This document shows positions 697-55,641 of a stretch of 64,000 nt of DNA, piece after piece. The notes under the pieces were generated by a model. The model saw nothing but the letters and a program-made list of their open reading frames with translations. It ran no database searches and was not told where the DNA came from. The stretch is taken from contig JALLLS010000032.1 in the NCBI GenBank assembly GCA_025094145.1, positions 186,001 through 250,000 of the forward strand, given 5' to 3'. A program made the translations under genes and the position numbers. The DNA comes from Spinellus fusiger (taxonomy: Eukaryota > Mucoromycota > Mucoromycetes > Mucorales > Phycomycetaceae). The stretch's first letter is position 1. Each line of letters opens with the position of its first letter.

Positions 697-981
697 TACA
701 CACCCAAAGATTCTTCTGACCTTCAAGCGGTGATACACTCTTCCTTTTACGTCACAATAAAATTCCCTTTTATGGACATGTGTTTAAAATCAAAAGGTTT
801 GCAAGTATCTAGATTATTATTTCCTTTTGTGAATACCTCAATATCAAATTGTGTTATCAATAGAATATATTGTTTATAAATACATCTTAATTTATTTTTG
901 CTTCTTTTCAAATCAATATCATTCTTAAACAATTGTAGTTCGATTATTTCCTTTTATATTCTAAAGATCTCCTGGTGTGTA
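697..981. mobile_element. Complete 285-bp TIR element (MITE-like) of the TACACACC family
   Basis: The left end reads TACACACC and the right end is its complement (CTCCTGGTGTGTA), both flanked by or including TA. The left part (697 to about 880) matches, in reverse, the segment ending at 41301 and the start of the copy at 35091. The right part (about 885-981) matches, in reverse, the segment starting at 38134. The piece therefore carries both ends of the longer element at 38134-41301 with the interior missing, the structure expected of a non-autonomous deletion derivative. It contains no coding capacity. The homology was judged by eye over long stretches. Confidence 0.8.
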
Positions 982-1268: not shown

Positions 1269-2178
1269 AAAGACTGCAATGGGATAAAAATAGACTTGCT
1301 TTGATAGCTGGAATGGGGTGTCCAAGAACACACTTCTTTGTTTCTTTTGCAGTGGGTGGGTGACGTCGACTTAACAATAAAAACACAAGACAAGTTTAAC
1401 CCATCTAACCCATCTGACATGGATGAGCCTAACAAGTCTATATTCAACCAACAGTCACACCAACTGACACTAAGACTGACACTGACACTTGCGCACACGA
1501 TGAAACCCTTTTACGATTCTGATAGGACAAAACATATATAAAAAAGAGACGGGAAAACACCTGAGATAGAGAAACACAGTCCAATCGCACCCCAAAAGCA
1601 GACATTTCTGTCACACGACGTCTGTCTTTTTCTCTCGGATGATTACTGCTTTTTATTCGCTTCATGGCTTTCTCTCTTTTTCTCCCACCTTTTTTTTTCC
1701 TTCTCTTTTACGCATTCTCAGCTAATCATTCTCAATCAAGCCAAATCCATCGCCTCCCCTTTCTCTTTTCATCCTTCTTTTATTTCCACAGTCTATTTGA
1801 CGTGTCAAGTCTTGCAGGCCACTCTTTGCATGGAAAACACTCTGTATTTAAACTTCACCTTTCAGAATTAGTTATTGTTCAACCTCAGTATTACTATGCG
1901 CTCCAATACGAAGCTTATCATCAGTCTTGTCAACAGAGTAGCCATGCGGGTAATAACATAAAAACAACAGCAACATCAACAGCTGTAGGGGGGAGGTCTT
2001 TATTATTATTATTATTATTATTAAGGAAAAAAAAAAGAAAAGGAAAAAGAAAAAGAAAAGAAAGTAGTGGGTTCATTCATTCACTCACTCACTCACTCAC
2101 TCACTTCTTTGTTATTGTTTATATTAGCTACCTGTCAACAATGGAAGAAAGATAGAAAGCTTAGAACAAGACCCCATC

Positions 2179-4847
2179 ATGCAGCAGACAGGTAAAGCGA
2201 AACATAACTCCACTGTAGATCCTGCCTACAAGTGCAGAGAAGATAAACCACTAGTCGCCATGACCTAATCTACTCACACTCACACTCTACAGTGGCTGCT
2301 ATCATTGAGCTGTCTGTGCACAAACTATCTACCATTGTCAATTCTCTTGCTTCTGCACTGGACACTGTCTCCAAGGCAAGTCCCCTTTACAACTACAAAG
2401 GAAAAGAGTGACTAACCCTACCTGTTGACTTTGTTTACATTTCATTCTCTAGGCGGCACCTGCATTTCATTCTATTTCTGATGCCCTGCCCTCTGTAGAA
2501 GTAATGCAGTCACAGCTCTTTTTACTACGACTCTTATCAGCATGCATGCGACACTACTGGACGTGTTTTAGACAACTCAAATTGAAAGACACTGCACACA
2601 CCTCCTCCTCTTCTTCTTTTGCTACAACATCCACGACCAATACGACGACACCCATAACTACTAATGCTACCACGACTAATGCTACCACGACTAATGCTAC
2701 CACTGCCACCACCACCACCACCACTACGTCACATAGCTATCTTCATTCTTCTACTACTACTCCTACAGTCCTCACACTAGAAAATGATTTTCCTATTCAT
2801 CCTCTGAAGCAAGTACCTTCACCTTCTCCTCGGACTACACCTCTACACCCTAACAAATCCTCCAATGCACGTTCCCCGCTTTGTTTGACCGACCCACCTC
2901 CTTTGGATGAAGCATTGGTAACATTTCTCATGGTGCTATTGAGTCGATTCATCTACCAAGCCCATGTCTTGGAAGAAACCAACGAATTATACGACAATGC
3001 CTCTATTGATAGTGTGGGGCCTGACATGACAGTGTTTGCCCCTAGAATTGATTTTGCCACCTATGAGCTAGTGATGAGCATCCAGGCTGCAGCAGGAAAA
3101 GTGTTGCATTATGTGAGTGCTAGTAACTGGAGTTCCTATTATGCAAAGATAAAGAATGCAGTCCATGCATTAAGTGTGATCAGTGATACGACAGAAACAA
3201 GTATTACTGAATTGAGGTTCTTGGAATGCTGCTGTTTAACAAGAGAGCGGTTGTCCATTGTATTAACAGGTAAGAAGGACTACAACAGCAGCAAAAGTTG
3301 TAGAGAGAAAAAGAGAGAGAGAAAGAAAAAGGGGGAGGGATATTGATCCACATTATCCATAATGAATATAGAACTGAGTCCTTACTTTCTCAACATTGAA
3401 AACGACACCAAACTACTCTTTGCAAAGTTAATGCGCACTGCTATTTGGCGATGGATAGAGTCTTATCCTGCTGAATTTGCTGAGCTCTATGAAAGTGAAG
3501 AGCGTCTAATGACTGGACCTGAAGTTCTGTTTGATCTGTGCAATTCCAATGTCGACAGTCCAAGGAAAAAGTCTATCCTATGGCCATTGCGCTCTATTCT
3601 TCTTGCACTCTCACCTGATGTGTTGACGCAGGCCTATTTGGACACCACCTCTTCACAGAACCGAAGGGTAATCTACCTTTTCAACTTATCTTTCTATTGA
3701 AGAAGAATGGATAATAACTTCTTCTTTTTATTATTATTGTTGTTGTGTCCACAGACAGTGTTTCTGAAGATGTTGGGCAAGACATTACGAACTGTAAGAT
3801 CCAATGAGATTGCTGCTCTTTGTTTTGTGGACCTATGCAAGGCAGCCACGTATGTTTCTCCAACAGAAGACAATGTATTGCGACATATTGCTATTGATGT
3901 AGAAGATGATTTAAGAGAGAGTGTCTGGAATGTAGCTCGCTTCAGTGTGCCGCAGACATCGGTGGCTAGTGGAGGCTATAAGATTGATCAACTGGCATTT
4001 GCTTCTGATCACTTGCTATCACAACTACGCATGGATAATATCAAGGCACTCGAGACCATTGTTTCTATATGTCTTGAGGAGAATGCACCCTTTGTGTTTA
4101 AAATGGCATTTGTAAAGTCATGTTCTACGATTGTGAACCAACCATCCAATGCATGCTATGTTATTCGAAAGCCAGAGATCCGTGCTCTGCTTTGTGATCG
4201 TCTCAGATCTCTTTTCTTAGTAGCATGTACTTTTGAACAAAGCAGCAGTAATCGTTCAGATACTTCACTTTCCCAGTTCAGTATGAAGAAACTCCAAGGA
4301 GATAGAATGCCCAGAAAAGACTCACAAACAAGACTCAAAGAAAACAGAATGCTTCTTGATGATATTCTACGTCTATATCGAGCAGACCCCCTTCTTGCTC
4401 TCAAAGTAAAAAAAAAAAGAATAGGAAGAAGAAAAAGATAGTAAAGCTAAACATGGTATCTTTCTCTTTCTAGGATAATGTCGAGGGTTGTCTGGAGAGC
4501 AATACTACAATCGTGGTCAGTGTACTCAATCTATTGCAACATTCAGAGTCTACTATTCGACAGCTCTCGAGTGAATGTATTGTAAAACTGTATGACCAAC
4601 GATGCATTTACGTGTGGGGTCCTCGTGGGTCAATGACTTTCAACTTTTGGCATATTACTCTGCAAACCCACTTTCTACTGTCGAAGCAAATCCTGGAGAA
4701 TCCCAGAGATGACAATATTATCTTGTTTGTGTTGAGCCTGTTTGCCAAATTAAGTGCTGCCAAATCTATTTTTCTGCGTAATTCTTCAGTAAGTTTTATT
4801 TTACTACGAGTAGAAACAAATCAATAAGAGAGAGAAGAAAGATAAAC

Positions 4848-17272: not shown

Positions 17273-18657
17273 TACAGTACACTCCCACGTAATAAGTGAC
17301 TGGAAAAAATATTAATTTCCTTTTTTTATTCTTCAAAAATAAAATAGACCTCTTTTCTTTTCTTTTATAACTTATTCAAAAAATGTCTTCAAGCAATGAA
17401 AATCAGCCAACTCTTAGCCAATAATATGAAGATACTTCTATTAAAAGAATGGAGCATTATATGTTTATTAGAGGTCAGATCATTGGACAATGGAAAAGAT
17501 ATGCTACTTATCAAGAGATTTCTGACGATCTTGACATCCCAGTGAGCACAGTGGGCAGGATTATCCAATTGTATAAGAACAAAGGCATAACTCAACCTAG
17601 AGTGCGTACAGGAAGACCTGAAAAGGCTTCATCTACTTCAAAACTGGCAATTGTTTTATCTATTCGCAGAAACCCTATGCAAACAATTGCATATAATTTG
17701 AAGAATATCAATGATGCAGGCGTGGATATTTGCTGTAGCACATTTGTAAAATACATGAATGAACTCGGGTTTTTTCATGCTCACCATCAAGGAAACCTGG
17801 TATGACACTTACTCATAAGCAAAGGCGATTGGAATGATGTAGAAACAAGGTTGATTGGCCAGTGGATAGGTGGAGTAACGTCATTTGGTCTGATGAGTCT
17901 CGTTTCACAGTTGTGGGCAACGATAAAGGAACTAGAGTGATCAGAAAAATGGGTGAGAGGTATGAGGAGCGTCATACGCAAAGGACATACAAGTATGGCA
18001 AAGGTTCAGTCATGGTTTGGGGTTGCTTTTGGCGTGGAGGTGTAGGACCTCTTGTACTCTTAGAGGGGTCAGTTGATCAAGACAAGTATGTCAATGTACT
18101 TGCCAAATACTTTCTTCCCTGGTTCCAAAAATTGCAAAAGAACCTCAATGAGACCATGCTCTTCCAAGAAGACGGTGCTCCTTGCCATACTGGAGGATAT
18201 AGCAGATGGTACAAACAGGAGAGATGTATGATCGAAGGTTTTGATTTTTGGCCTGTACAAAGTCCATTTATTAACCCAATTGAACATGTTTGGGCTTATC
18301 TTGAAAAGAAGATCAATTCGCATCGAACAAGCATAGCCAATGCACAACAGCTTGAACAATGCTTGCGTAGTGAATGGGAGAAGATTCCAAATGAATTTTT
18401 GGAAAATTTAGTTGATAGCATGCCAAGGAGGTGCTCTGCTGTGATAAAGAATAAAGGCTTTGCTACAAATTACTGAGAAATATTTATATAATGAAAATGT
18501 AGATAATCATCTAAAGAACAACTGTTCCAAATCTCGTGTTATTCTATGAACTTTTTATTATGAACATCTTGGACTGATAGAAATACCTTTATTTTTCAAA
18601 AAAATAAAATTCAAAAAAATTAATCTTTTTTCCAGTCACTTATTACGTGAGACTGTA
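17273..18657 (+). mobile_element. Tc1/mariner-type DNA transposon with both TIRs
   Basis: The left terminus TACAGTACACTCCCACGTAA (from 17273) and the right terminus (to 18657), read in reverse as TACAGTCTCACGTAATAAG, share the inner block CACGTAATAAGTGACTGGAA, with a few extra bases on the left. Both ends are flanked by TA, the target duplicated by this superfamily. The element is about 1.38 kb and encloses one transposase reading frame, now broken. Its 3' 150 bases have a close relative at 35583-35740. Confidence 0.88.
17383..18476 (+). pseudogene. Tc1/mariner transposase, broken by two stops and one frameshift
   Basis: The protein would bind the TIRs through an N-terminal HTH and cut and paste the element through a DDE domain. 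The start ATG at 17383 is followed by an in-frame TAA at 17422. The HTH region (YQEISDDLDIPVSTVGRIIQ, then GRPEKASSTSK) runs to about 17800. There the frame shifts, and a TGA at 17835 sits where the family normally has Trp (RRLE-stop-CRN). The catalytic part follows: IWSDESRF, SVMVWGCFWRGG, FQEDGAPCHTGG, QSPFINPIEHVW. There are 36 residues between the second Asp and the final Glu, so it reads as DD36E rather than the common DD34E. It ends at 18476 and is not functional as read. Confidence 0.85.
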
Positions 18658-18830: not shown

Positions 18831-20991
18831 TTAGTCAACCGAGGCTCCAGCGATAACTGGGGAGGAGAAGGATGGAGATGAACCAGAAGGCTTGAACCTT
18901 TTATTGGTTCTAGGTGTATCTATGGAGTTATGCTTTCTTTTGTTCTATCTACAAAAACACTATGAGAGGGTGCTATTTTCCCTTTGAGACATTATAATAT
19001 GTCTAAAGTTCAATGTAGCAGCTAGATCACGATTCCCAAAGCCTCAATGTCTTGTCTTTCATACAATTTTGGTTTGAACACCTATTTGAAGAGAGAGGAC
19101 GAGTTTCTTTTTTTTATATGAAATTAAGAAATGACCTGAGAAGACTATGACATCTAACTTGAAGTATTTTTCTTCGTTGATAGGGCCTGGGGTTCTTGAC
19201 ATGTTTAAATGTTTCCAAAGGTGAGAACTTGCACCCAGGACACAGACTTGATGTTTTGAATTCGTTGATATGATAGAGTTTGAATCCTTCTTTCTTCAAC
19301 ATCCTCCACATGACCTTCCCCTTTATTGGTTCATGGAACTTCATATTTGTGCTTGACCAGTCGTCCAAGATCAACACCGGATATTCTCCAAACTTGACTC
19401 TCAAGTTTCGGGCTAGTCGTTTATCAGACTGCAATCTATTAATATGACTCGATAGCTTCATCTTTCGAAATGGTAGTAGCGATTGTTTCATAATAAGAGA
19501 ATTGGCACTTGAGGGGCCCTTTTCTTTGATACCATTGTCTTTTCTTTGCCCGTTATCATCTTTCATTGTTTCATTGCCTTAATACAATATCAAGTCCTCC
19601 GATACACTTGCTTTTGTTTGTATGTATTTGATGAACTCTTTGAGTTTTACTGTTGAAGCAGGAACTTGACTAAGTTTGTCTTCTAGTCTTTGGATGGATG
19701 GAGGCTTGAGGTTCTGTCGAAGCTTCTTGAAATGGGTTGACTTTGTTTCTTTGGCTTGTTGATTACGTGTATACCTGTAGATGGATTTATTATCGGGTGT
19801 ACTGTTTTCTTGCATGCAGAATAATAGGTCTCGACGACCCGGATCGATGAGTACACATCTGTCTTTTGTCTCTACTAATGCAGCTTGAGATAACTCTTCA
19901 ATAGACTCAATGTGGTCCTCATCAATATGTGCTTTGCGACTACCACCTGAGGAATGTCTCGACATAAAGTTTTGCTTGATCACCGACACTGCCACACCAT
20001 CGGTTTCTATTGTACCTTGGAATCTCATTGACCTATCTATACCTTAACTTTTGAACACCTTTGATTTTAGATTGACAAATTGACCCCAAAGATCAAACTT
20101 TTCGCTCGTGTAGCTTTTGTTTTTCAAGATAGGGTGGTTGAGTATCTTAGTATCTATCGTAATGTGAGAGGGAATGAAGCTTTTACGAAGTGAGAAACAA
20201 CTAAAAGATTTGTTTCTATTCTCTTCACATAGTTGGATTGGCTTAGCAAATGCGTATATGTGCTTGCTTGGATTGGCTTTAACATTATAATAGATGGAGT
20301 TTTTAGCAAATCTATAACTGGGAGGATAGCAGGCTAGCAGTTCTTGTACTTGGCTAATGGCCTTTTTGTTCAAGAAATCTACGGGTGCATTGGGAACAGT
20401 TTTTGTCGAAATGTCTAGTTTGATTTGCATGCACACATCCAACACATTTAATCTAATAATATTTGCAATAGCCTTAGAATAGTTTTTGGTTTTCATGGCA
20501 TGGGTCAATGTGGCAATTCTTTCTTTTTGTCGCAGGATGATGTTGAAGAACATTCTAAGACGATTCCCAAATTGAGACACAATATTATTGGTGTAGGATG
20601 TGTGTATCTTGGTGCTTTCATAAATGGAGATTTGTTGAGCATTGGTTATTTTGATTGGAGTGTAGGATGCATATTGGCAGTAGTCATTCTTCAGAGGGTT
20701 GATCTTCTCTCTTATTTGACGCACCTTGGGTGTGAGACGTGTTTTACCGGAAGCACTACCCTCTCTGATTTGCTTATCAATGAGCGACAAAAACACCTCA
20801 CGGAAGAAATCCTTAGTTATGCACTCATTCAAAGCAGATCCATCTTCATTTTCGAGTAGATGGATCAATATATACTTGGAGAACGTATAAGTATGAGAAA
20901 CAATGGTACTGATGTTATGGACCAGATTTTTCAAAACAGGTAGATAATCCGATCTCCAACCAGTGTCATGCAAAGAGGTTTTAACTGTCAT
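18831..20991 (-). pseudogene. Fanzor (TnpB-like RNA-guided nuclease family), near full length, inactivated
   Basis: Fanzors are eukaryotic relatives of TnpB: RuvC nucleases guided by an omega RNA. The frame starts at ATG 20991 (VKTSLHDTGWRSDYLPVLKN) and keeps IETDGVAVSV, the RuvC-I block CVLIDPGRRDLLFC (Asp codon 19843-19845), the later VLILDDWSSTN and MWRMLKKEGFKLYHINEFKTSSLCPGC, the zinc ribbon (CPGC and, after a 54-base intron, CSNQNC) and the RuvC-III block NRDLAATLNFRHI (Asp codon 19026-19028). A low-complexity basic tail (NKRKHNS, TNKRFKPSG) ends at 18831-18833. Defects: TAA at 20044-20046 and 19579-19581, an extra base near 19035-19037, and TAGs at 18960-18962 and 18945-18947. Removing the intron leaves about 702 codons, a normal Fanzor length. 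A Tc1 copy lies 175 bases beyond its 3' end but has its own two TIRs. The terminal motif pattern, not overall similarity, supports the assignment. Confidence 0.88.
19082..19135 (-). other. 54-base intron inside the Fanzor zinc ribbon
   Basis: On the minus strand the exon ends CTTCTCAG, the intron starts GTCATT and ends CAAATAG, and the next exon starts GTGTTCAAAC. Joining gives CHSLLR-CSNQNC, exactly the expected spacing of the zinc ribbon, whereas reading through meets a stop at 19114. It lies between the two Cys pairs. Confidence 0.8.
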
Positions 20992-21009
20992 TACTCTGGT
21001 AGGACTCAC

Positions 21010-22270
21010 ACCTGAATAACTTGCTATAGGCTCTTCATCAGTCTATTATAAAAATCAAATACATGTAAGAATCCTAGATTGAATCTATAAACATGTTGTA
21101 TCTTCTTTACTTCATTAACATCTTGTTGTCTGCATAACATCTTTAGTTCAGAAAGAATAGATAGAAATGCAGTGAAAAAGAGAAAATAAATAGTTATTTT
21201 ATTAGCAACACTGAATAGTATCAACTATTATTTATCATCCATTGATGTGATGTTGTTGTCAATAGCTTCTTAGGTCTAAAGGTATTGGTTTAGTTAAAGT
21301 ACAATTAACTCTGCTCTTATTTATTCAACTTGTTTGTTATTCTTTTATACTTCTTTTATACTTTAATGATCACTACAAATAGAAAAACTTAGCAGAAATC
21401 ACCACCAAAAGGCATACATTCTAATGTAGGCTGTTGTACTTTTATATTACCTCTGAAAGATCTATCAACTGTATTAAATACGCTACGACTTAGATGCTTT
21501 ATTCAATACCATTGATTCTGTAGCTGTTTTATTTATTTATTTATTTATAAACTGTTAAATGTTAACCTCTCGTTTCTTTAATAAATGGGGTCTGAGGTAA
21601 CAGCATCCTGTACACCACTCAATATATCTCTTCTCAATGTGTCTTGGTTGTGCCGTATATAATTCAGACAACCTTGTTTAATGTTAGCATACTCTATACT
21701 GATAAAGAGAGCTTTCCAAATACATGCAAGTGATTGGAGTCATTTCTGTACATCAATCTGAAGCAGTAGTGTTTTAGTGTGCTTCTCTTGACATTTTGGT
21801 CATTGAATAAGTATGTATTTATATTCCAAACCTAACTATCCTATATGAAAAAAAAGAAGTACGTAACTCATAGGATTGTATGACTGATTCATCTCATTCG
21901 TTCTTTACAGTAAGCTGCCATTTCTTGGTCATATCACAATGTCTCTACTTTCTGTCTGGTTTCTATTATTATTTGGACAATTGTAATGACTTTTGCGCAA
22001 ATAGCCATACTTACAACAGCTTTTATATCTATTTTGACAATGATTTACTAAAGAAAAGTTATTAGGTATATAAATTGGATTAACATACTTGTCCAAGAAA
22101 GTGTTAATACAGCCACACTCAACTGAATTAAATACTTGTGAATATAAATATCAGGACGAAATAGATAGGACATGTTCAACATTAAATAAAACACTTTACA
22201 TTTGATTTAGAAGCTTCATACTTAAGCATATCAAGTCTCAATATCTTTAATTATAGAAAATAGAATAATA
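21010..22270. other. AT-rich 5' flank of the Fanzor remnant, no gene seen
   Basis: No conserved coding frame is visible. The first 200 bases upstream of the Fanzor start have an open minus-strand stretch (21024-21224) that could hold leader sequence but shows no motif. I looked for a terminal inverted repeat pairing with sequence between 18658 and 18830 and did not find one. Confidence 0.35.
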
Positions 22271-35090: not shown

Positions 35091-35560
35091 TACACACCAG
35101 GAGATTTTTCTGGCTTTTAGGCAGGGATATCTCCTTCCTTTTACGTCTAAAAATATCTTGCCTTTTATGGAACTGTATTTAAAATAAAGAGATTTGTGAA
35201 TATCCAATTTATTATTTCTTTTTGTGGAATACTTCACTATCAAATTGTATTATCAATAGAATATAGTGTTGATGAATAAAATTGTTTATTGTAATAGTAT
35301 AGATAATACTCTATTATGACTATAGCTACTGCCCAAGTGCATTCCCTCATAGAAATAGAATCCACACCCTAAAAACCCAATTCTTTGTTCTTGGAAGATA
35401 GATAACTATGCTCAGTAGTATACCCTAGACACTATTGACCTTGTAGAAGACTACTTGGGACTGACTTGAGAAGAGTCTTTATTTATTAACAATACTATGA
35501 GTGTCTTGTGGAATACAACAAGCTTAAGCCCAGATGAAGACTCTGTTACAGGGCACTAAG
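35091..35560 (+). mobile_element. Truncated copy of the TACACACC TIR element
   Basis: It starts with the terminus TACACACCAGGAGATTTTTC. Read in the plus direction it follows the sequence of 41301 read backward to about 40700, through ACTATAGCTACTGC, GGAAGATAGATAACTATGCT and AAGCCCAGATGAAGAC, with small deletions. The match fades near 35560, just before a Tc1 end at 35583. The other terminus is missing. Confidence 0.8.
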
Positions 35561-35582
35561 CAATATCTTTATAATAAGAATT

Positions 35583-35740
35583 TAGACAATCATCTAAAGA
35601 ACAACTGTTCCAAATCTTGTGTTATTCTATGAACCTTTTATTATGAACATCTTGTACTGATAGATATGCCTTTATTTTTCAAAATAAGAAAATAAGAAAA
35701 TAAAATTGCTGTTCACTCATTTATTGTATGGGACTGTATT
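35583..35740 (+). mobile_element. Solo 3' end of a Tc1-type element
   Basis: From ACAATCATCTAAAGAACAAC to GGGACTGTA this matches the last 150 bases of the transposon ending at 18657, including the subterminal ATTATGAACATCTTG. No transposase or left end accompanies it, so it is a fragment. Confidence 0.8.
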
Positions 35741-36499
35741 TATGCATAGAAAACCCATGGGATTCACAGTTTCCATTGATAAAAATACAAACATTATGCT
35801 TTAGCACAACTTCTTGGTTTTCAAATCACGGATTGAATCAATGCCTATGAAAACCAATTATAAAACAGACAGAGTATAAGAGAAAGGTCAACTCATCTTT
35901 CTTCTTTTCTTCATGGAACGTGCTCTGAGGATTATGGCAGTGAAGAACTCAATCACTGGTATTGAATAGAAGCCGATGTATCTATCAGGACATACATCTT
36001 CAACAGTCAATTATAAAAGGTTTGCAAGACACCTCGAGAAGAGAGACAGAATCACCACAGTGTTGCATAACTAATTATTCAAATGAAGATACTGCTGCTG
36101 TGGAAAACCAGAAGGTCAATAGCCTAATCCTATTTCTTAGAATGAAGCTTTTGATCTTTGTTAATCAACAACAATTGGACAAACATCTAGCTAGTAGTAA
36201 CCAACCCACCAAAACATCAAAAAAGAATCCAGTGTAATTATTGCTACACTACATCCAGATACACGTAAGTCTTTTTTTTTTTTTGGAACCATACTACATT
36301 TCTACACTCTATTTTATTTCCTCAAAGATACATCTATACTTTATGAGAATACCCCCTTTTAAATATATCAGCCAATTATAAAAATAGTGTTATTTTATTG
36401 TCCATGTATTTACTTTTATATCCCAAATATCTTTAGGTGTGTACAGCATAAACAATTAATAATAATAAGAGTGTATTTGCAATAAAGAACTGACTCTTA
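35741..36499. other. Region between Tc1 fragments, no gene seen
   Basis: AT-rich with scattered stops. An open stretch at 35962-36237 has no recognisable motif and is probably repeat-derived. Confidence 0.35.
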
Positions 36500-37585
36500 T
36501 ACAGTCACACAACATTAGAAAGTATACGACCCCATAATTTATACATTTTTAAACATGATTCTTCTTCTTTTTACCACAGAATCACATTCTATTAAGCAAT
36601 CACAGATGCTAAAGTCATAATCCTCAACTAGAAACTCAAGAGTTTGTAATAAGATTAAAGAAAGAGAGTACTAGTGTGATTATTGACTTGAAAAAAGAAA
36701 ATTACTCGATGGGTAGCATTTCAAAGGTCATTGACATTAGCAAGACAACTGTCCAGAATAGCATTAGTAGAATCAAGACTGCTGGTACATATGTACCCCT
36801 TAAGACTTGAGACGTGTTGTATGGTCTGATGAGTCACAGTTTAAAGTAGAGGGTTACCAGGGAGGAGCCAGAGTGATTCTGGATATTAGAGAAAGATGCA
36901 AGGCTGCTCATATCATACCTACAACCAAATGGGGGAAAGGCAGCATAATGATCTGGAGCTGTTTCTGGGCTGGTGGATTTGGGCCTTTGGTCTTTATTGA
37001 TGGCACTGTAAATCAAGACGAATATATCAAAATATTGGCAGGAAAATCTCTGTCATGGTTCATTAAATTGAATGAGAAGGAGGACAGAGACTTCATATTC
37101 CAAGAAGATGGGGCTAGCTGCCATACAGGTGGCTATACAACATGGTGGAAAAGAGACACATCAAATTTAGAGCTTTGATTACTGGCCCACACAATGTCCT
37201 GATCTCAACCCCATTGAACATCTCTGGAGCTGTCTTGAAAAGCTTATAGATAACAAGAGAGTCGATATAAAGAATATCGATGAGCTCAAGACAGTTTTAG
37301 AAGAAGCTTGGAGAAATATCCACGTCGATCTTGCCGAACGTTTAGTTGGCTCAATGAAGGATCGCTGCTAGGCAGTTATTGATGCCAAAGGTGGCCCAAA
37401 AAAATATTAAATAAAATTTTTTTTATATATATTACTATAGAAAATAGGTTAAACTAACTTTGTATTGAATTTGAAGTCATTAGTATGTGTTTTGAGGTCG
37501 TAACATTTATATTCGTAAAGCATGTTTTTTTTTTCAGGATTTCAAAAAATGAAAATCGTATACTTTCTAATTTTGTGTGACTGTA
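36500..37585 (+). mobile_element. Tc1/mariner-type transposon with near-identical 31-bp TIRs
   Basis: The left end starts TACAGTCACACAACATTAGA at 36500. The right end, ending at 37585, reads in reverse TACAGTCACACAAAATTAGA; both continue AAGTATACGA. TA occurs at both outer edges. The element is 1,086 bp, shorter than a full Tc1 copy because its transposase lost an internal piece. Confidence 0.9.
36657..37410 (+). pseudogene. Tc1-type transposase with an internal deletion and a frameshift
   Basis: An N-terminal HTH is readable (YSMGSISKVIDISKTTVQNS), then the region between DNA-binding and catalytic domains is missing. The catalytic part starts RRVVWSDESQFKVEGYQGGA and includes GSIMIWSCFWAGG and FQEDGASCHTGGY. 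After about 37160 the frame changes to FDYWPTQCPDLNPIEHLW. A TAG at 37368 interrupts MKDRC-stop-AVIDAKGG, and TAA at 37408 ends it. It is clearly inactive. It differs from the copy at 17.4 kb in TIR and protein sequence, so it is a separate subfamily. Confidence 0.85.
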
Positions 37586-38057
37586 TCCCCTCATTAAATG
37601 ACTTAGTTACATATTCAATTCAGACAGTCTATTCTTCCTTCTTTTTGTTGTTGTTATTATTACCACCACTACTATTGCTATTATTAACAATACTAATAAC
37701 AATATTAGGACAAAGAACAAGAGAATATTCTATTGTTGGATAGGCAATCTCAAGAGACTCTTACTCACACTCTTATGGACTGCCTTTGTATGAGATTAAA
37801 ACTCATAATGATCACCAAAAATAGTAATAATAATAAAGGATGATTGACTTCATCAACCCATGTCGATTCTTCTTGGGATTCTATCTGTTGATGCCACACA
37901 TTATGACATGTTAGTATAACCAGTAAATATATTTAAATATAGAGTCTATAGAGTCTATAAAAGACAAGTAGGTTATTTATGTGTTACCTATTCAAAAAAG
38001 AAAGAAAGAAATAGGTGACACTTTCTCTTTGGATCTCTCTATAGCTTGAGATTTTTA

Positions 38058-38133: not shown

Positions 38134-38323
38134 TACACACCAGGAGGTCTTTAGGATATAAAAGGAAATAGTCGAAATACAATTGTTTAAGAAATGACAT
38201 CGATTTGAAAAGGAGCAAAAATAAATTATGTATTCATGTTAGTTTTTAAATAAAGATTATTATTATAATTTACCTGTAAATATCTGAATCCCGAAGGAAA
38301 CCACTTTCGATGTGGCGATATAT

Positions 38324-38391
38324 AATATGAATGCATCAAAGAATATCTATTCTTATGTGACTGTATAGATACCCTTTGATGCATTCACATC
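38324..38391 (-). other. 27-bp hairpin at the 3' tip of the second Fanzor remnant
   Basis: Arms 38324-38350 and 38365-38391 are inverted repeats with a 14-base loop. Read as minus-strand RNA (the Fanzor sense strand), all 27 positions pair if G-U is allowed; the DNA mismatches all fall where G-U pairs form. The outer arm starts at the codon for the RuvC-III Asp (NRD). The loop contains ACAGTCACA, which resembles a Tc1 end. Its position, between the Fanzor catalytic end and the element terminus, is where an omega RNA is expected. Confidence 0.7.
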
Positions 38392-38904
38392 TCTGTTCTA
38401 AACAATTCCGCAACTTTGTCAAGCGCGGATATTGTTGAAATTCACTAATACCTCAGTGAGGATATTTGTGTTGCAAGTATGGCAGATCTTGAGAACAAAA
38501 AAAGAAAACAAAACAGAGTAACTGTTAAAAGAGCATTTTATATTGAGTGAGAGGTCAATCATGCTTACCCTTGATGTTCGAAACTCATCAACATCAACTA
38601 CAAGAAGATCTCCATCTTTTTGTCTCTTTTTTTCAATGATTGATATAAAACTCTCGTCAAACCAACACGATGGCCTTTGAACTTGGTAGCATCCTTTCCT
38701 TTCATTCCTGTGCCATAGGCAATGACTGGCAGCCTGGTAGGATTATACTCCAATATTCTTAGGTGCCAATACACCTTTTTAATAATAAAATAATAGTAAA
38801 AACAATTAGTTCGACATGTATTAATGTACTCTCTATGTGGATGTCGTATTACCCTTGCACTGGCACCTTCTTTTTGCCTTTGCCTTTGTAACGGATTCAC
38901 TGGG
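38366..38904 (-). pseudogene. Second Fanzor remnant (C-terminal RuvC and zinc region)
   Basis: Three exon-like pieces on the minus strand read in order: 38904-38853 (NPLQRQRQKEGASAR), 38774-38569 (YNPTRLPVIAYGTGMKGKDA, then FKGHRVGLTRVLYQSLKK, and after a frame slip in an A run LLVVDVDEFRTSR) and 38487-38366 (ICHTCNTNILTE, then NRDVNAS). Intervening introns 38775-38852 and 38488-38568 have GT-AG ends. The VDEFRTSR-CxxC-NRD series is the Fanzor signature of RuvC-II/alternate Glu, zinc ribbon and RuvC-III. Two in-frame stops interrupt the last piece and the second Cys pair is incomplete. The sequence differs clearly from the copy at 18.8-21.0 kb, so it is another Fanzor lineage. The RuvC-I half is not recognisable. 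Confidence 0.78.
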
Positions 38905-41301
38905 CTTATTATAGTAAAAGAATATACAATAGAAACTGACTAACATGTCAGACATAATAAACATACACAAACACTTACCAGATTACAACTGTTGGTTTAT
39001 ATGCCAGACAAAGGCAAACAAGTTAAAGAGGGTAGAAGTTATGAAGAACAACAGACAGTGTAATTAGCAGGTATTTATATCCGAACAGAAGAGAACAAAA
39101 CTAAATTTCACAAGTCATTTGCTTAATCAGAATCACCAAAGTAATGCAGACTACAACAACATTCTAGAAAGAAAAGAAGTGCTTAAAGAACAGTTGCCTA
39201 GTTACCAGTTGTGATCAAGTCGTGTGTTGTGTTCCTGCATGTACCCTCTTTGATTTCCCTAGACCAGCCTTTGTACTAATACTCTATTTCGTTGTCCCTG
39301 CTAGAGACCAAACAACTACAGATTCATCTCTCTCTAGTGGTCTTGTTGATAACCACAGTGCACCTTTATTGCAGAATAAAAGATATATTTTACAAAGTTA
39401 CATAGTATATATCTTGAGGCTACTTTCATATATATCTCATCAAGCTATAAGGATCAAAGTTATATGATAATAACATCTCAGTAAATTCAGAGATGGACTC
39501 CCTCCTCTTGTCTTATGTATGTTTCAGGGAAGAGATAAACTTTATTTACAATAAAATCACTTTATTGAATTCTATGGCCTTGAAATACAGGACCAAGATT
39601 ATACACATTATAGGACAAGACAGTTACCCTTCCCAGTCTTCTTGAATGTTCTATGAAAACCATAGCTATTACTTGAGAATAGCAAATTAGACAAATTCAT
39701 AGTCAAAGAAGAAATCCCAAACTAATATAAAAAGTGTAATTGTCTACATCTTTAATAAAATAAACTTTGATCCAAACAGCTTCCTAGAGTATAAACAAGA
39801 TAGGCTTTAAGGACTTGAGTAACTGACTGTTTCTTATTCTCGACTTGTTTTCTGTCTGTATTCCCACAGGGTGCCATTATTATTACAACTACCAGTTTGC
39901 CTTCTGTCAGCTCACACCCTTCTCTTTTCTGTCAATCTCCGTATGAGTAACCAGCCTTAAGAGGTCCTGTGTATCTCTTGTCTCATAGCAACAGAATATT
40001 TTTGGGATATAAAAGGAAATACATGAACAATGAAATTATGTTATTTGTTTTGTTGGCTAATGTGTTTGAAAAGAACCTTTTCACTGTCTGTCTGTTTTAG
40101 CATTGACTATGGACTGTCCAATTAAACACTAAAAGTTGGATAAAAGGAAGAAGCAAACCTGACATTGCAACTCAATCACTGTATTTATTGTTTAACATGT
40201 ACTATCCTTAAGCCCATACTTTTTGCAGTATGACACTGCTTAAGAAAGATTTATTGTAGGACTCACACGGAATTAACTCTAGTGATCATTGTTCAGAAAA
40301 TAGATGAAAACCTACTTGTGTTAAGAACAGTATAGCCATTCATTGACTCAATATTCATAATCACCTCAACTAACTCATTGTAGCTGTTCTTAACAATAGT
40401 ACTTAGTGAGAACAAGATATTGTTTCTAATACTGTCTTTTATGCCTAAGGCAAATAGAGTGTGAATTGTTTGACCTGAATTTTATGAGTTGAGGCTAAGA
40501 TAAATGCCTCACTAGAATAGAGAGAGAAAGGTTATTATTTGTTACTATATTTCCCTCCTTTTGTTATTTCCCACACTGTACATACAACTTAACACCCAAG
40601 TACTTGTCAAGATGAGCATAACTGAGCAAGGTAATGTGCTATTATTAACAAAGAGAAACAATAGAAGGAGGTGATAGACACTACCAAAGGCTATTCTAGT
40701 GATAAAAAGGTAAGCAGTGTCTTTATCTGGGCTTGAGCTCATTGTAATCCATAAGACATAGTACTGACTCTTCTAATAGATAACATATGGCTTATTATTC
40801 TCAAGACAAACATTAATTACAAGGTAAGTTTACTATCTCTCTTATTGAATTATTACTAATAAACCCTTCTGTTATTAGATAAGCTAAGTCTCTTCTCAAG
40901 TCAGTCTCAGGTGGTCTTCTTCCTTCTATACTGTCTAGGATGTCTAGGGTATACTCCTGAGCATAATTATCTATCTTCCAAGGATAAAGCACAAGGCCTT
41001 TAGGGTATAGACTCTATTGCTATGAAGGAATATACCTAGAACAGCAGTAGCTATAGTAATAGTATATTATTAGCTATATTATTACAATAAACAATATTAT
41101 CCATCAATAATTTTATTCATAAACAATATATTCTATTGATAATACAATTTAATATTGAGATATTCCACAAAAGATTTTTTTTTTTGGATATCCGCGGATC
41201 TTTTGATTTTAAATACAGTTCCATAAAAGGGCAAAATTTAGCTCATCCAGAAAGGAAGGAGATATCACCGCTTAAAGGCCAGAAAAATCTCCTGGTGTGT
41301 A

Positions 41302-53773: not shown

Positions 53774-55641
53774 TTTTGTGTAGCGTAGGAGAAGTAGGTT
53801 TTGTTATAAGAGTTCACTCGAACAGAGGTTTGCAGGATAGAAAGATGGAAGGATAGAAGGATAGAAGAATAGAAGGATAGAAGAATATAAATAGGCTCAA
53901 GTGTCTCCCTTTCTTGTGGATATCTCCCCCAGACAGTGCTTTTGTAGTGAGAAGAGTGTAAAGAAGAACAAAAGAAAAGGGAAAAGTGCAATGTGAATAG
54001 AAATAAAAAAGAGGGCTTTGGGCTGGAACGGGGCAAAAGAAGGAAGGAAAGATCCGAGATGTTGACGTCACTCGTATGTCCTGAGCCATTGAACCATGTG
54101 AGTGACACTCCTGATTCCTATTTCTTTAGTTGTCAGTGAAGAATAGGAGAATTCATCTCCAGTGTGTTTGTTGCCACTTGTAAGTTGCTTATAGGCTGTT
54201 GATTGGCTGTTGATTGGCTGTGGGAGATACACTAGAATGACTTATCAGTAGGTACCAGTCTCTCTTCTCTTTTCTCTCTTCTCTTCTCTTCATCTACATT
54301 ACAATAGGCACCGCCCAACAGTGACTCTTCCTCATTATAAACAACACTGCAGATACACTCTTTATTTTTCATTTTATTATTTTTCATTGGATAAACATTC
54401 ATCCCAAGAGAATAGTTTGATAATATTGCTCTAATGTGAACGGAAGAATCATCCTAAATATTCCTAATCCGTTGTCTATCGAGCCCAAAAAGTGGATTCT
54501 GGGAGACCAGAGTGGCAAAAGTGTGACGTGGAATTATTCAAAGAATCAGTCACGCTTGCTAAATGGGTCTCTCATAAAGAGAGAGGGGCGCGTCCACACA
54601 ACGGCTCTTTATATAAGCATCGACGGAGATCCAATAGATAGGAGATGAAATAAGCAGGAATCAAACTCAGTGTCTGTCTTTTTCTCTGTGGATGCGTGTT
54701 ACCTTTGAATCCCAAGAAAGGACATTTCCTCTATCCTGTCTCTGTTGCAGCATCAACTGATTAGGAAATGTCTTTATTACCAACACCATGGGCTTCTCTT
54801 TTCATCACTCTTCTCTTTTGATCATTATCACTCTTCTATCCAATAGGAGACACTGTCCTATCCAATAGGAGACACTGTCTAATACCGGGGCCACTGGAGT
54901 GTTATAGAAAGAATGTCAAAGAAGCAACGGGTCATTAGAAGTATCTCTTTCTTTATGACACGTTTCTTTTTTAGTTTACATTTCCGTAAAGAAACCTAAA
55001 CCTTATCTTCACTAGGAAATGAATGGTTCATCCTCTAATGGAGGATGAGGATGAGGGGGTTCTACATTGGAAGCATGAAACTGTTTCTTATTGCATGGAG
55101 GGTTCTGGAGGCTGCATTGATCGATAGCTGAGACTGTTTCTGATCCTATACGCAGTCCATCCTACTGCTGCAGTAGAGTGTCTTTGGAAAGAGGCAGCTG
55201 AAGAATGGAAGAGGCACTGCATTGTCCCCATCATAGAACCGTGTTGCTATGGGTGTTGTTCCTATCTAGTGGTGGCTCTGATGGACATTTCTATGATACT
55301 GCCAGTAACAGATGGAGTCCGTGATAAAGGCAGACACACGGGATGAGCATCCCATGGAGACTCCTTCTATCAACCTGTCACGAGAGAATCCTATCTATAG
55401 GCTGGCAAATGGAGATACATTTCTACTAATAAGAAAGAACAGCCTCATCTCCTGGTGTGTATGTCTATTTCTATTCGTACATTCAAGTCCATATCTCGTG
55501 AATATCCCATGAATACCTCCTGAATATCGTGTTTTTATCATTTTATCATTTTATCATTTTATCATTTTATCATTTTATCATTTTATCATTTTATCATTTT
55601 ATCATTTTATCATTTTATCATTTTATCATTTTATCATTTTA
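53774..55641. other. Intergenic region, mostly repeats and short frames
   Basis: Holds the SEY1 promoter side with AGAATAGAAGGAT repeats (53836-53886), a CTTCTC run (54263-54290), a TACACACC-family terminus (55449-55461) and the ATCATTTT tract. Open frames at 54436-54648 and 55312-55512 lack recognisable motifs. Confidence 0.45.
55449..55461 (-). mobile_element. Isolated terminus of the TACACACC TIR family
   Basis: CTCCTGGTGTGTA is identical to the 13-base tip of the TIR seen at 981 and 41301. Upstream sequence (TATAGGCTGGCAAATGGAGA) only vaguely resembles the element interior. It is either a fragment or a chance match. Confidence 0.4.

Follow-up and report, generated by a model that had tools for sequence, protein, structure and literature searches.

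A large non-autonomous, Fanzor-bearing transposon family of Spinellus fusiger, probably formed by the joining of a Fanzor gene to a Fanzor-less TIR element

The stretch of DNA analysed here (the window) comprises 64,000 nucleotides of Spinellus fusiger, a member of the Phycomycetaceae in the Mucorales, and corresponds to positions 186001-250000 of contig C124 in a 38-Mb genome of 197 contigs. Between 38134 and 41301 of the window two inverted termini enclose a piece of a Fanzor gene. The question raised by this locus is whether it is simply a Fanzor-carrying transposon whose gene has decayed, as an earlier note on this DNA had it, or whether gene and transposon were brought together in another way. 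We favour, with a probability of about 0.75, the reading that the window element is a non-autonomous chimera, in which a Fanzor-less element (hereafter named B) and the 3' part of a Fanzor gene became joined and were mobilised together as one unit.

Termini, copy number and target site

The element measures 3168 bp from TA to TA, and its Fanzor gene lies on the minus strand. That its ends are inverted copies with TA at both edges was confirmed by a TIR search. The TIR motif TACACACC adjoins the TA; the Fanzor-side terminus (left1, TACACACCAGGAGGTCTTTAGGATATAAAA) occupies 38134-38163 on the plus strand and the opposite or right terminus (TACACACCAGGAGATTTTTCTGGCCTTTAA) occupies 41272-41301 on the minus strand, where it is flanked by TC (GA on the plus strand). 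The exact sequence TACACACCAGGAG was found in the window at 969-981 (minus), 35091 (plus), 38134 (plus), 41289-41301 (minus) and 55449-55461 (minus), and eight sites were obtained when up to two mismatches were allowed, versus 1.11 on average and 6 at most in shuffled sequences. The site at 55449-55461 stands alone, with no recognised family sequence behind it.

Starting from left1, the element consists of the 3' flank of the Fanzor gene (38134-38373, minus strand), a C-terminal Fanzor remnant (38374-38888, minus strand) detected by tblastn with the Spinellus protein P0079, a segment of ~1.08 kb named X (38894-39976) delimited by BLAST against the examined loci, and a half derived from B (39977-41301, minus strand), which was recognised by BLAST and by the B left-end pattern and retains a degenerate B left end at ~39980-40010. 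In element coordinates, left1 and the Fanzor 3' part span ~1-756, segment X ~757-1843 and the B part ~1844-3168. The Fanzor remnant is real and reads toward 38134, the nearer end, as had been claimed. Segment X is common among the examined copies, and no coding sequence was recognised in it.

A search of the whole genome with the element ends, proposed in the earlier note, was performed. Left1 was found in 568 copies (34-nt pattern, up to three mismatches), whereas the reversed control gave none, which excludes chance. The 41301-type right end was found in at least 476 copies (up to two mismatches; control, none), a lower bound because a G that lies eight bases outside is counted as mismatched by the pattern. 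The left end of B was present in 567 copies, a class about as large as that of left1. For the pairing of the ends, the 20 best matches were fetched from the 39 other copies with a left1 score, so that copies were sampled mainly by similarity and not randomly. In 18 of these 20 copies left1 was followed by the 41301-type end, with element sizes of 1.0-3.2 kb, which supports the proposal that both ends belong together in one TIR family; the right end was not in place in L010 and L019. Its last bases were altered in L016 and L017 (nearly identical to each other), L020, L022 and L025, and the window element was matched over almost its full length, at 86-87%, in L025 and L026. Among the first 100 right ends listed (95 distinct flanks), 29 were paired with a listed left1 or Fanzor match at a distance of 0.3-3.4 kb and 66 were unpaired, some of which may carry Fanzor, since left1 ends with mismatches are absent from those listed.

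Some copies showed rearrangements of their own. In L020, GGCATTGTA stands at ~1416-1426 in place of the normal right end and is identical to the left flank of the copy (GGCATTGTA), possibly as a result of template-switch repair. L029 is a composite of two 1.88-kb copies, 99.9% identical, arranged head to head, separated by 384 bp and with two 41301-type outer ends, one of which is damaged. Repeat matches often occurred as equal-scoring inverted pairs ~1.5-20 kb apart on the same contig (for example C150:112430+/119640-, C24:3099+/6267- and, just beyond the window, C124:250656+/254520-), which may be either palindromic duplications or an effect of the assembly.

Two relatives were found inside the window. 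The 285-bp piece at 697-981 (minus strand) contains ~106 bp of the left1 end and ~186 bp of the right end. In BLAST against the window, positions 1-104 of the element match 981-876 at 89% and positions 2981-3168 match 882-697 at 76%, so that two element ends are joined near 876-882. The piece is short and non-coding, has TIRs with TA at both edges and shares its ends with a larger element, like a MITE, and its sequence supports the earlier proposal that it is an internally deleted derivative of a window-type element. It had also been said to carry the same two ends; this holds for their joining, but the end at 697 reads TACACACCCAAAGAT, a variant of the TIR and not TACACACCAGGAG. Another copy of ~0.29 kb is suggested by end coordinates on contig C90. 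The copy starting at 35091, previously taken as truncated, is a complete Fanzor-less B-type copy of 1353 bp (35091-36443, minus strand) with the right end at 35091 and, at 36443, the B left end TACACACCTAAAGATATTTGGGATATA, which is different from left1.

To find empty target sites, the 60-base flanks of each of 14 copies were joined and used as genome queries. Junction-spanning empty paralogues were obtained for L011, at 12 places, eight of which were fetched; this search gave no informative empty paralogue for the other 13 copies. The eight sites align without gaps within five bases of the junction, and in seven of them TA is present once and the site reads T-TAGA (L050 reads T-TGGG). This indicates that the TA was duplicated upon insertion and that the GA following the right-hand TA belongs to the target. 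The 2-bp TA target site duplication is thus shown at one locus, from a single copy. The same sites led us to reject the idea that the element includes the two additional bases found at its right end, and the TA duplication also discards the asymmetric ends of Helitron2-like elements, which had been considered for the TC signal described below.

The TA duplication (at this one locus), TIRs adjoining the TA and TIRs starting with TA-CA are all features of Tc1/mariner elements. Judging from these features the family is likely to belong to this superfamily, and only likely, because each transposase studied in or beside the copies belonged to another element. The abundance of Tc1/IS630-type transposases in the genome (174 DDE_3 matches) points the same way, but those DDE_3 genes that were studied within or next to copies carry different TIRs. 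In agreement with the earlier note, no transposase of the family was recognised in the examined copies. Three candidates were discarded. The Tc1 transposase at 36500-37590 has its own TIRs, TACAGTCACACAA, and occurs nested in L019 and beside copies in L021. The IS630-like transposase in the B copy L051 (689-2286) has its own TIRs (TACACTATTTTCAC...; TIR TACACTATTTTCACTTATTATTGTCGCAC) and the same element was found in L027 and L053. The integrase in the B copy L052 (863-2689, minus strand; a 609-aa frame with PF00665 and PF17921) has other genome copies whose open frames reach 1,250 aa and resemble gypsy-type pol. The L051 and L052 genes resemble foreign elements nested within the B copies. Taken together, this is a real, large, non-autonomous and TA-duplicating family, probably mobilised by a Tc1/mariner transposase. 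Tc1-type elements with TIRs of their own lie near Fanzor pieces of the window at 17278-18657 (TACACTCCCACGTAATAAGTGACTGG) and ~36498-37588 (TACAGTCACACAA).

The Fanzor piece and the longer Fanzor genes

The Fanzor piece of the window contains intron-like gaps, in-frame stops and one frameshift. On the Fanzor strand its relatives read EYDPTKLPVVAYGTG...DEFRTSR, followed by an intron-like gap and ICHTCNTN...CQSCGIVWNRDVNASKN. The zinc finger ... RD motif of Fanzor and TnpB proteins ([TS][TS]-x-x-C4) is therefore recognisable in the relatives (EFRTSR / ICHTC...CQSCGIVWNRDVNASKN) and is broken in the window copy. With the Pfam model TNB (PF07282; cut-off, 26.3 bits) one open relative, L038, scored 28.3 bits and passed, and another, L039, scored 21.6 bits and failed. 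The RuvC-I aspartate, which stands in a DPG motif in Fanzor and in D-phi-G in TnpB, is absent from 38134-41301. Segment X was considered as the missing N-terminus and rejected, since none was recognised by eye in the three Fanzor-strand frames of a consensus and X has no match to the long gene L056.

A genome search with the Fanzor piece gave 818 candidates, 150 of which were scored, and all 150 matched; the longest open frame around the piece among them was 229 aa. The copies with the longest frames (212-229 aa; contigs C117, C147, C152, C1 and C90) were rejected as full Fanzors: L038, L039, L040 and L042 contain the C-terminal Fanzor part only, and L041 (C1) is the copy with B against Fanzor described below. 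The pN/pS ratio was 0.43 in the piece (50 codons, 17 stop-free copies), from which no constraint is claimed because the other five frames gave 0.51-1.43.

The protein closest to this Fanzor is P0079. It belongs with P0080 (Spinellus fusiger BDF14DRAFT_1710815 and _1730339, respectively) and with P0081 (Mycotypha africana BDF20DRAFT_803796, just 32% identical) to the same Fanzor subfamily, and each of the three is a partial model. A search with P0079, which covers the RuvC-I region, returned at least 206 matches from the 150 scored of 991 candidates, and among the matches listed at least five cover its first 77-78 residues (on C13, C164, C179, C127 and C46). P0079 itself maps to C13 exon by exon at 91-96%.

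Long Fanzor genes with left1 at their 3' side do exist. The two that were fetched from these five matches, L056 and L057, are alike at 86% over a stretch of ~2.5 kb, with left1 at the end of each. The common part starts at the codons GK(R/H)ISVTRKIKLE; upstream of codon GK they diverge, L057 adjoining a zinc-knuckle frame and L056 a frame that resembles a reverse transcriptase (PF00078, E = 1e-7), and no exact TACACACC was present upstream of the Fanzor start in either of them. The RuvC-I-like stretch reads CGVDLGRKH in L056, CGVDPDRKH in L057 and CGADPERNH in the chimera L041, so that the aspartate is kept and the next residues vary; L056 also encodes CQSCGIVWNRDVNASKN. The earlier note had proposed to look for a longer copy with intact Fanzor and transposase; longer Fanzor genes survive, and no family transposase was found.

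The window contains a second, different Fanzor at 19114-21042 (minus strand), which is open but for two in-frame stops and whose first open piece has 127 genome matches, some of them in open frames of 641-663 aa. Its 663-aa relative L035 matches PpFz1 of Parasitella (E = 4e-159) and SpuFz1 (7e-43). In contrast, no significant match to solved Fanzor structures was obtained for the subfamily of the window element, whether it was queried with an open C-terminal piece, with a profile of 7 sequences or with two pieces taken from L057.

Origin of the chimeric element

Elements of the B type combine the B left end with the 41301-type right end and are Fanzor-less where they were read (35091-36443, L051 and L052). 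The most informative junction is that of L041. Here B occupies 2321-3445 with both ends present, its left end intact, and a Fanzor coding sequence starts mid-gene directly at the TA of B and runs to left1 at 4678, this Fanzor part being 81% identical to L056 2763-4030. In L023, a B with a degenerate left end abuts the gene elsewhere, at ~2188 of L056, and here too the junction lies at a TA. The window element is a third type of chimera. The junctions at two different gene positions suggest that the gene was beheaded at least twice, and the internal flank TGTAGCTC, common to three B left ends, indicates that the L041-type chimera has at least three copies and was moved or copied as a unit.

The simplest history, whose order of events is read from these junctions, would be as follows. 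An ancestral Fanzor gene would have had left1, a terminus of the TACACACC type, at its end, and the related Fanzor-less TIR element B would have inserted at a TA within its coding sequence. The outer end of B and left1 would then form a compatible TIR pair, through which the block of B, Fanzor 3' part and left1 could be mobilised as a unit, with loss of the N-terminal part of the gene. A lineage that also had segment X may have expanded widely, and internal deletions would have given rise to derivatives of 0.3-3.2 kb, including the 285-bp piece. Movement was most likely of the cut-and-paste type, with a Tc1/mariner-like DDE transposase presumably acting in trans. The reading as simply a Fanzor-carrying transposon with a decayed gene is not supported: of the gene, the examined window-type copies carry no more than the 3' part, which is linked to a Fanzor-less element. 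Full-length copies without Fanzor, which the earlier note regarded as contrary to its reading, exist in part: they are the B class (567 left ends) with the 41301-type end, Fanzor-less where read.

Two other histories were weighed. The family might derive from a classic Fanzor-carrying Mariner that once had both transposase and Fanzor at full length, its present copies being internal deletions. Fanzor1 genes in TA-duplicating Mariner elements have been published (PMC3627910) and deletion derivatives of many sizes occur in this genome, but no transposase was found, the 41301-type end was linked to a Fanzor N-terminus in none of the examined copies, B left ends are present in hundreds of copies and an intact one lies directly against Fanzor coding sequence in L041; this origin appears unlikely. 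It is more plausible, although still doubtful, that the parent Fanzor unit was one-ended, with a fixed 3' and a variable 5' side, and that TIR elements arose only as B chimeras. L056 and L057, alike from codon GK to left1 and each adjoining different retroelement-like sequence upstream, fit such a parent, as do the copies of MCi-2 of Mucor circinelloides, described as differing in their 5' 1-3 kb and sharing the 3' Fanzor part (PMC3627910). However, only two long genes were read, in which a nested insertion, or a truncation, close to one and the same exon boundary would produce the same picture, and the resemblance of left1 and the B left end to each other beyond the TIR argues for a normal TIR parent.

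Fanzor-bearing transposons that duplicate TA are already known. The Fanzor1 Tc/mariner elements PUl-4 and PGv-1 (Bao and Jurka 2013, PMC3627910) are described with TIRs and a TA duplication, and PUl-4 has Fanzor and no transposase. The Spinellus family differs from both in the loss of the Fanzor N-terminus by joining to a sister element and in its hundreds of copies, and no confirmed Mariner with identical TIRs was found for it. MCi-2 shares the mucoralean host and the common 3' and differing 5' parts seen in L056 and L057, whereas its description gives duplications of 11-12 bp and no recognisable TIRs instead of a 2-bp TA duplication with TIRs (PMC3627910). The CMe-1A family of Cyanidioschyzon merolae is likewise a high-copy Fanzor family (~150) that shares part of its sequence with a Fanzor-less element, TE-N2_CMe, but as described there (PMC3627910) it has no TIRs and some copies encode an intact Fanzor. 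What is new is the formation of the chimera, its scale and a TC footprint that lends itself to testing, not the kind of system: in the Spinellus family the Fanzor gene was most likely beheaded by its sister element. In a full-text search of mostly open papers, those listed contained no description of such an event with spread of the hybrid to hundreds of copies, nor of the Spinellus fusiger family.

A one-sided TC before the target TA

Both ends could be placed in a set of 20 examined Fanzor-bearing copies, in which the TA is preceded by TC at 18 of the right ends and two of the left1 ends (Fisher p = 5e-7). These copies were picked by similarity to the window copy or by an open Fanzor frame, not randomly. 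The set includes L020 and L022, with altered right ends, and omits L010, L019, L031, L033 and L038 (no right end in place or in the locus), the duplicates L017 and L030, and other copies with altered or doubled ends, of which L016, L025 and L039 read TC and L029 reads AC. Among the first 100 genome matches for each end, TC was found in 38 of 95 distinct right flanks and 11 of 99 left1 flanks, and at ~8% of the TA sites of the window. Where it could be tested, at the single locus L011, the TC at the right end is target DNA.

A target preference of the transposase, with no role of Fanzor, is the moderately probable explanation. A C before the TA is raised on both sides (62/95 right, 47/99 left1), and right ends paired with B are asymmetric too, with TC in four of ten versus 9/96 B left flanks, these ten pairs being drawn from 38 unpaired right ends and 100 of the 567 B left ends. 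On the other hand, a symmetric transposase should not tell the two ends apart, and TC was commoner at right ends paired with a left1 or Fanzor match than at unpaired ones (17/29 vs 21/66, p = 0.02). When examined and paired copies were pooled, minus two overlaps, the figure was 33/47 (p = 6e-5 vs unpaired, in a non-random set), which against the ten B pairs gave p = 0.14.

The TC could instead reflect a Fanzor TAM, 5'-TCTA. The geometry fits this reading: the gene is directed toward left1, whose flank would supply the guide, and the TAM would have to lie at the far end. The TAM of SpuFz1, CATA, also ends in TA (PMC10432273), and that of the mucoralean PpFz1 of Parasitella is ATN (PMC11423790). 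The putative omega RNA scaffold and guide junction would be expected at 38134-38373; scaffolds of Fanzor1 guide RNAs have been predicted to include TIR and TSD (PMC10711439). A CCAC/GTGG hairpin in this region is conserved in most of 28 aligned copies. The fold energy gave no structural support (z = +1.4), and compensatory change was found in none of 26 pairs across the 28 copies.

One rather improbable extension is that the hundreds of beheaded copies act as guide-only OMEGA units, for which the longer genes would provide, in trans, a Fanzor that cuts empty sites at TCTA and restores the element. Each copy would keep its 3' end for a guide RNA into its own flank, and insertions would be preferentially retained where TC precedes the far-side TA, so that the empty site carries the 5'-TCTA TAM and a one-sided footprint is left across the genome. 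For TnpB, a drive has been reported in which plasmids without the element are cut under RNA guidance (PMC11870625), to which we liken this footprint by analogy. Whether Fanzor biases which insertions survive is a long-open question, for which the one-sided TC is a signal to test; many datable Fanzor-bearing and Fanzor-less insertions share one end here, which makes such a bias testable by counting. Against a role of Fanzor, the TC is found at the left1 side instead in L056, L057 and the truncated L010.
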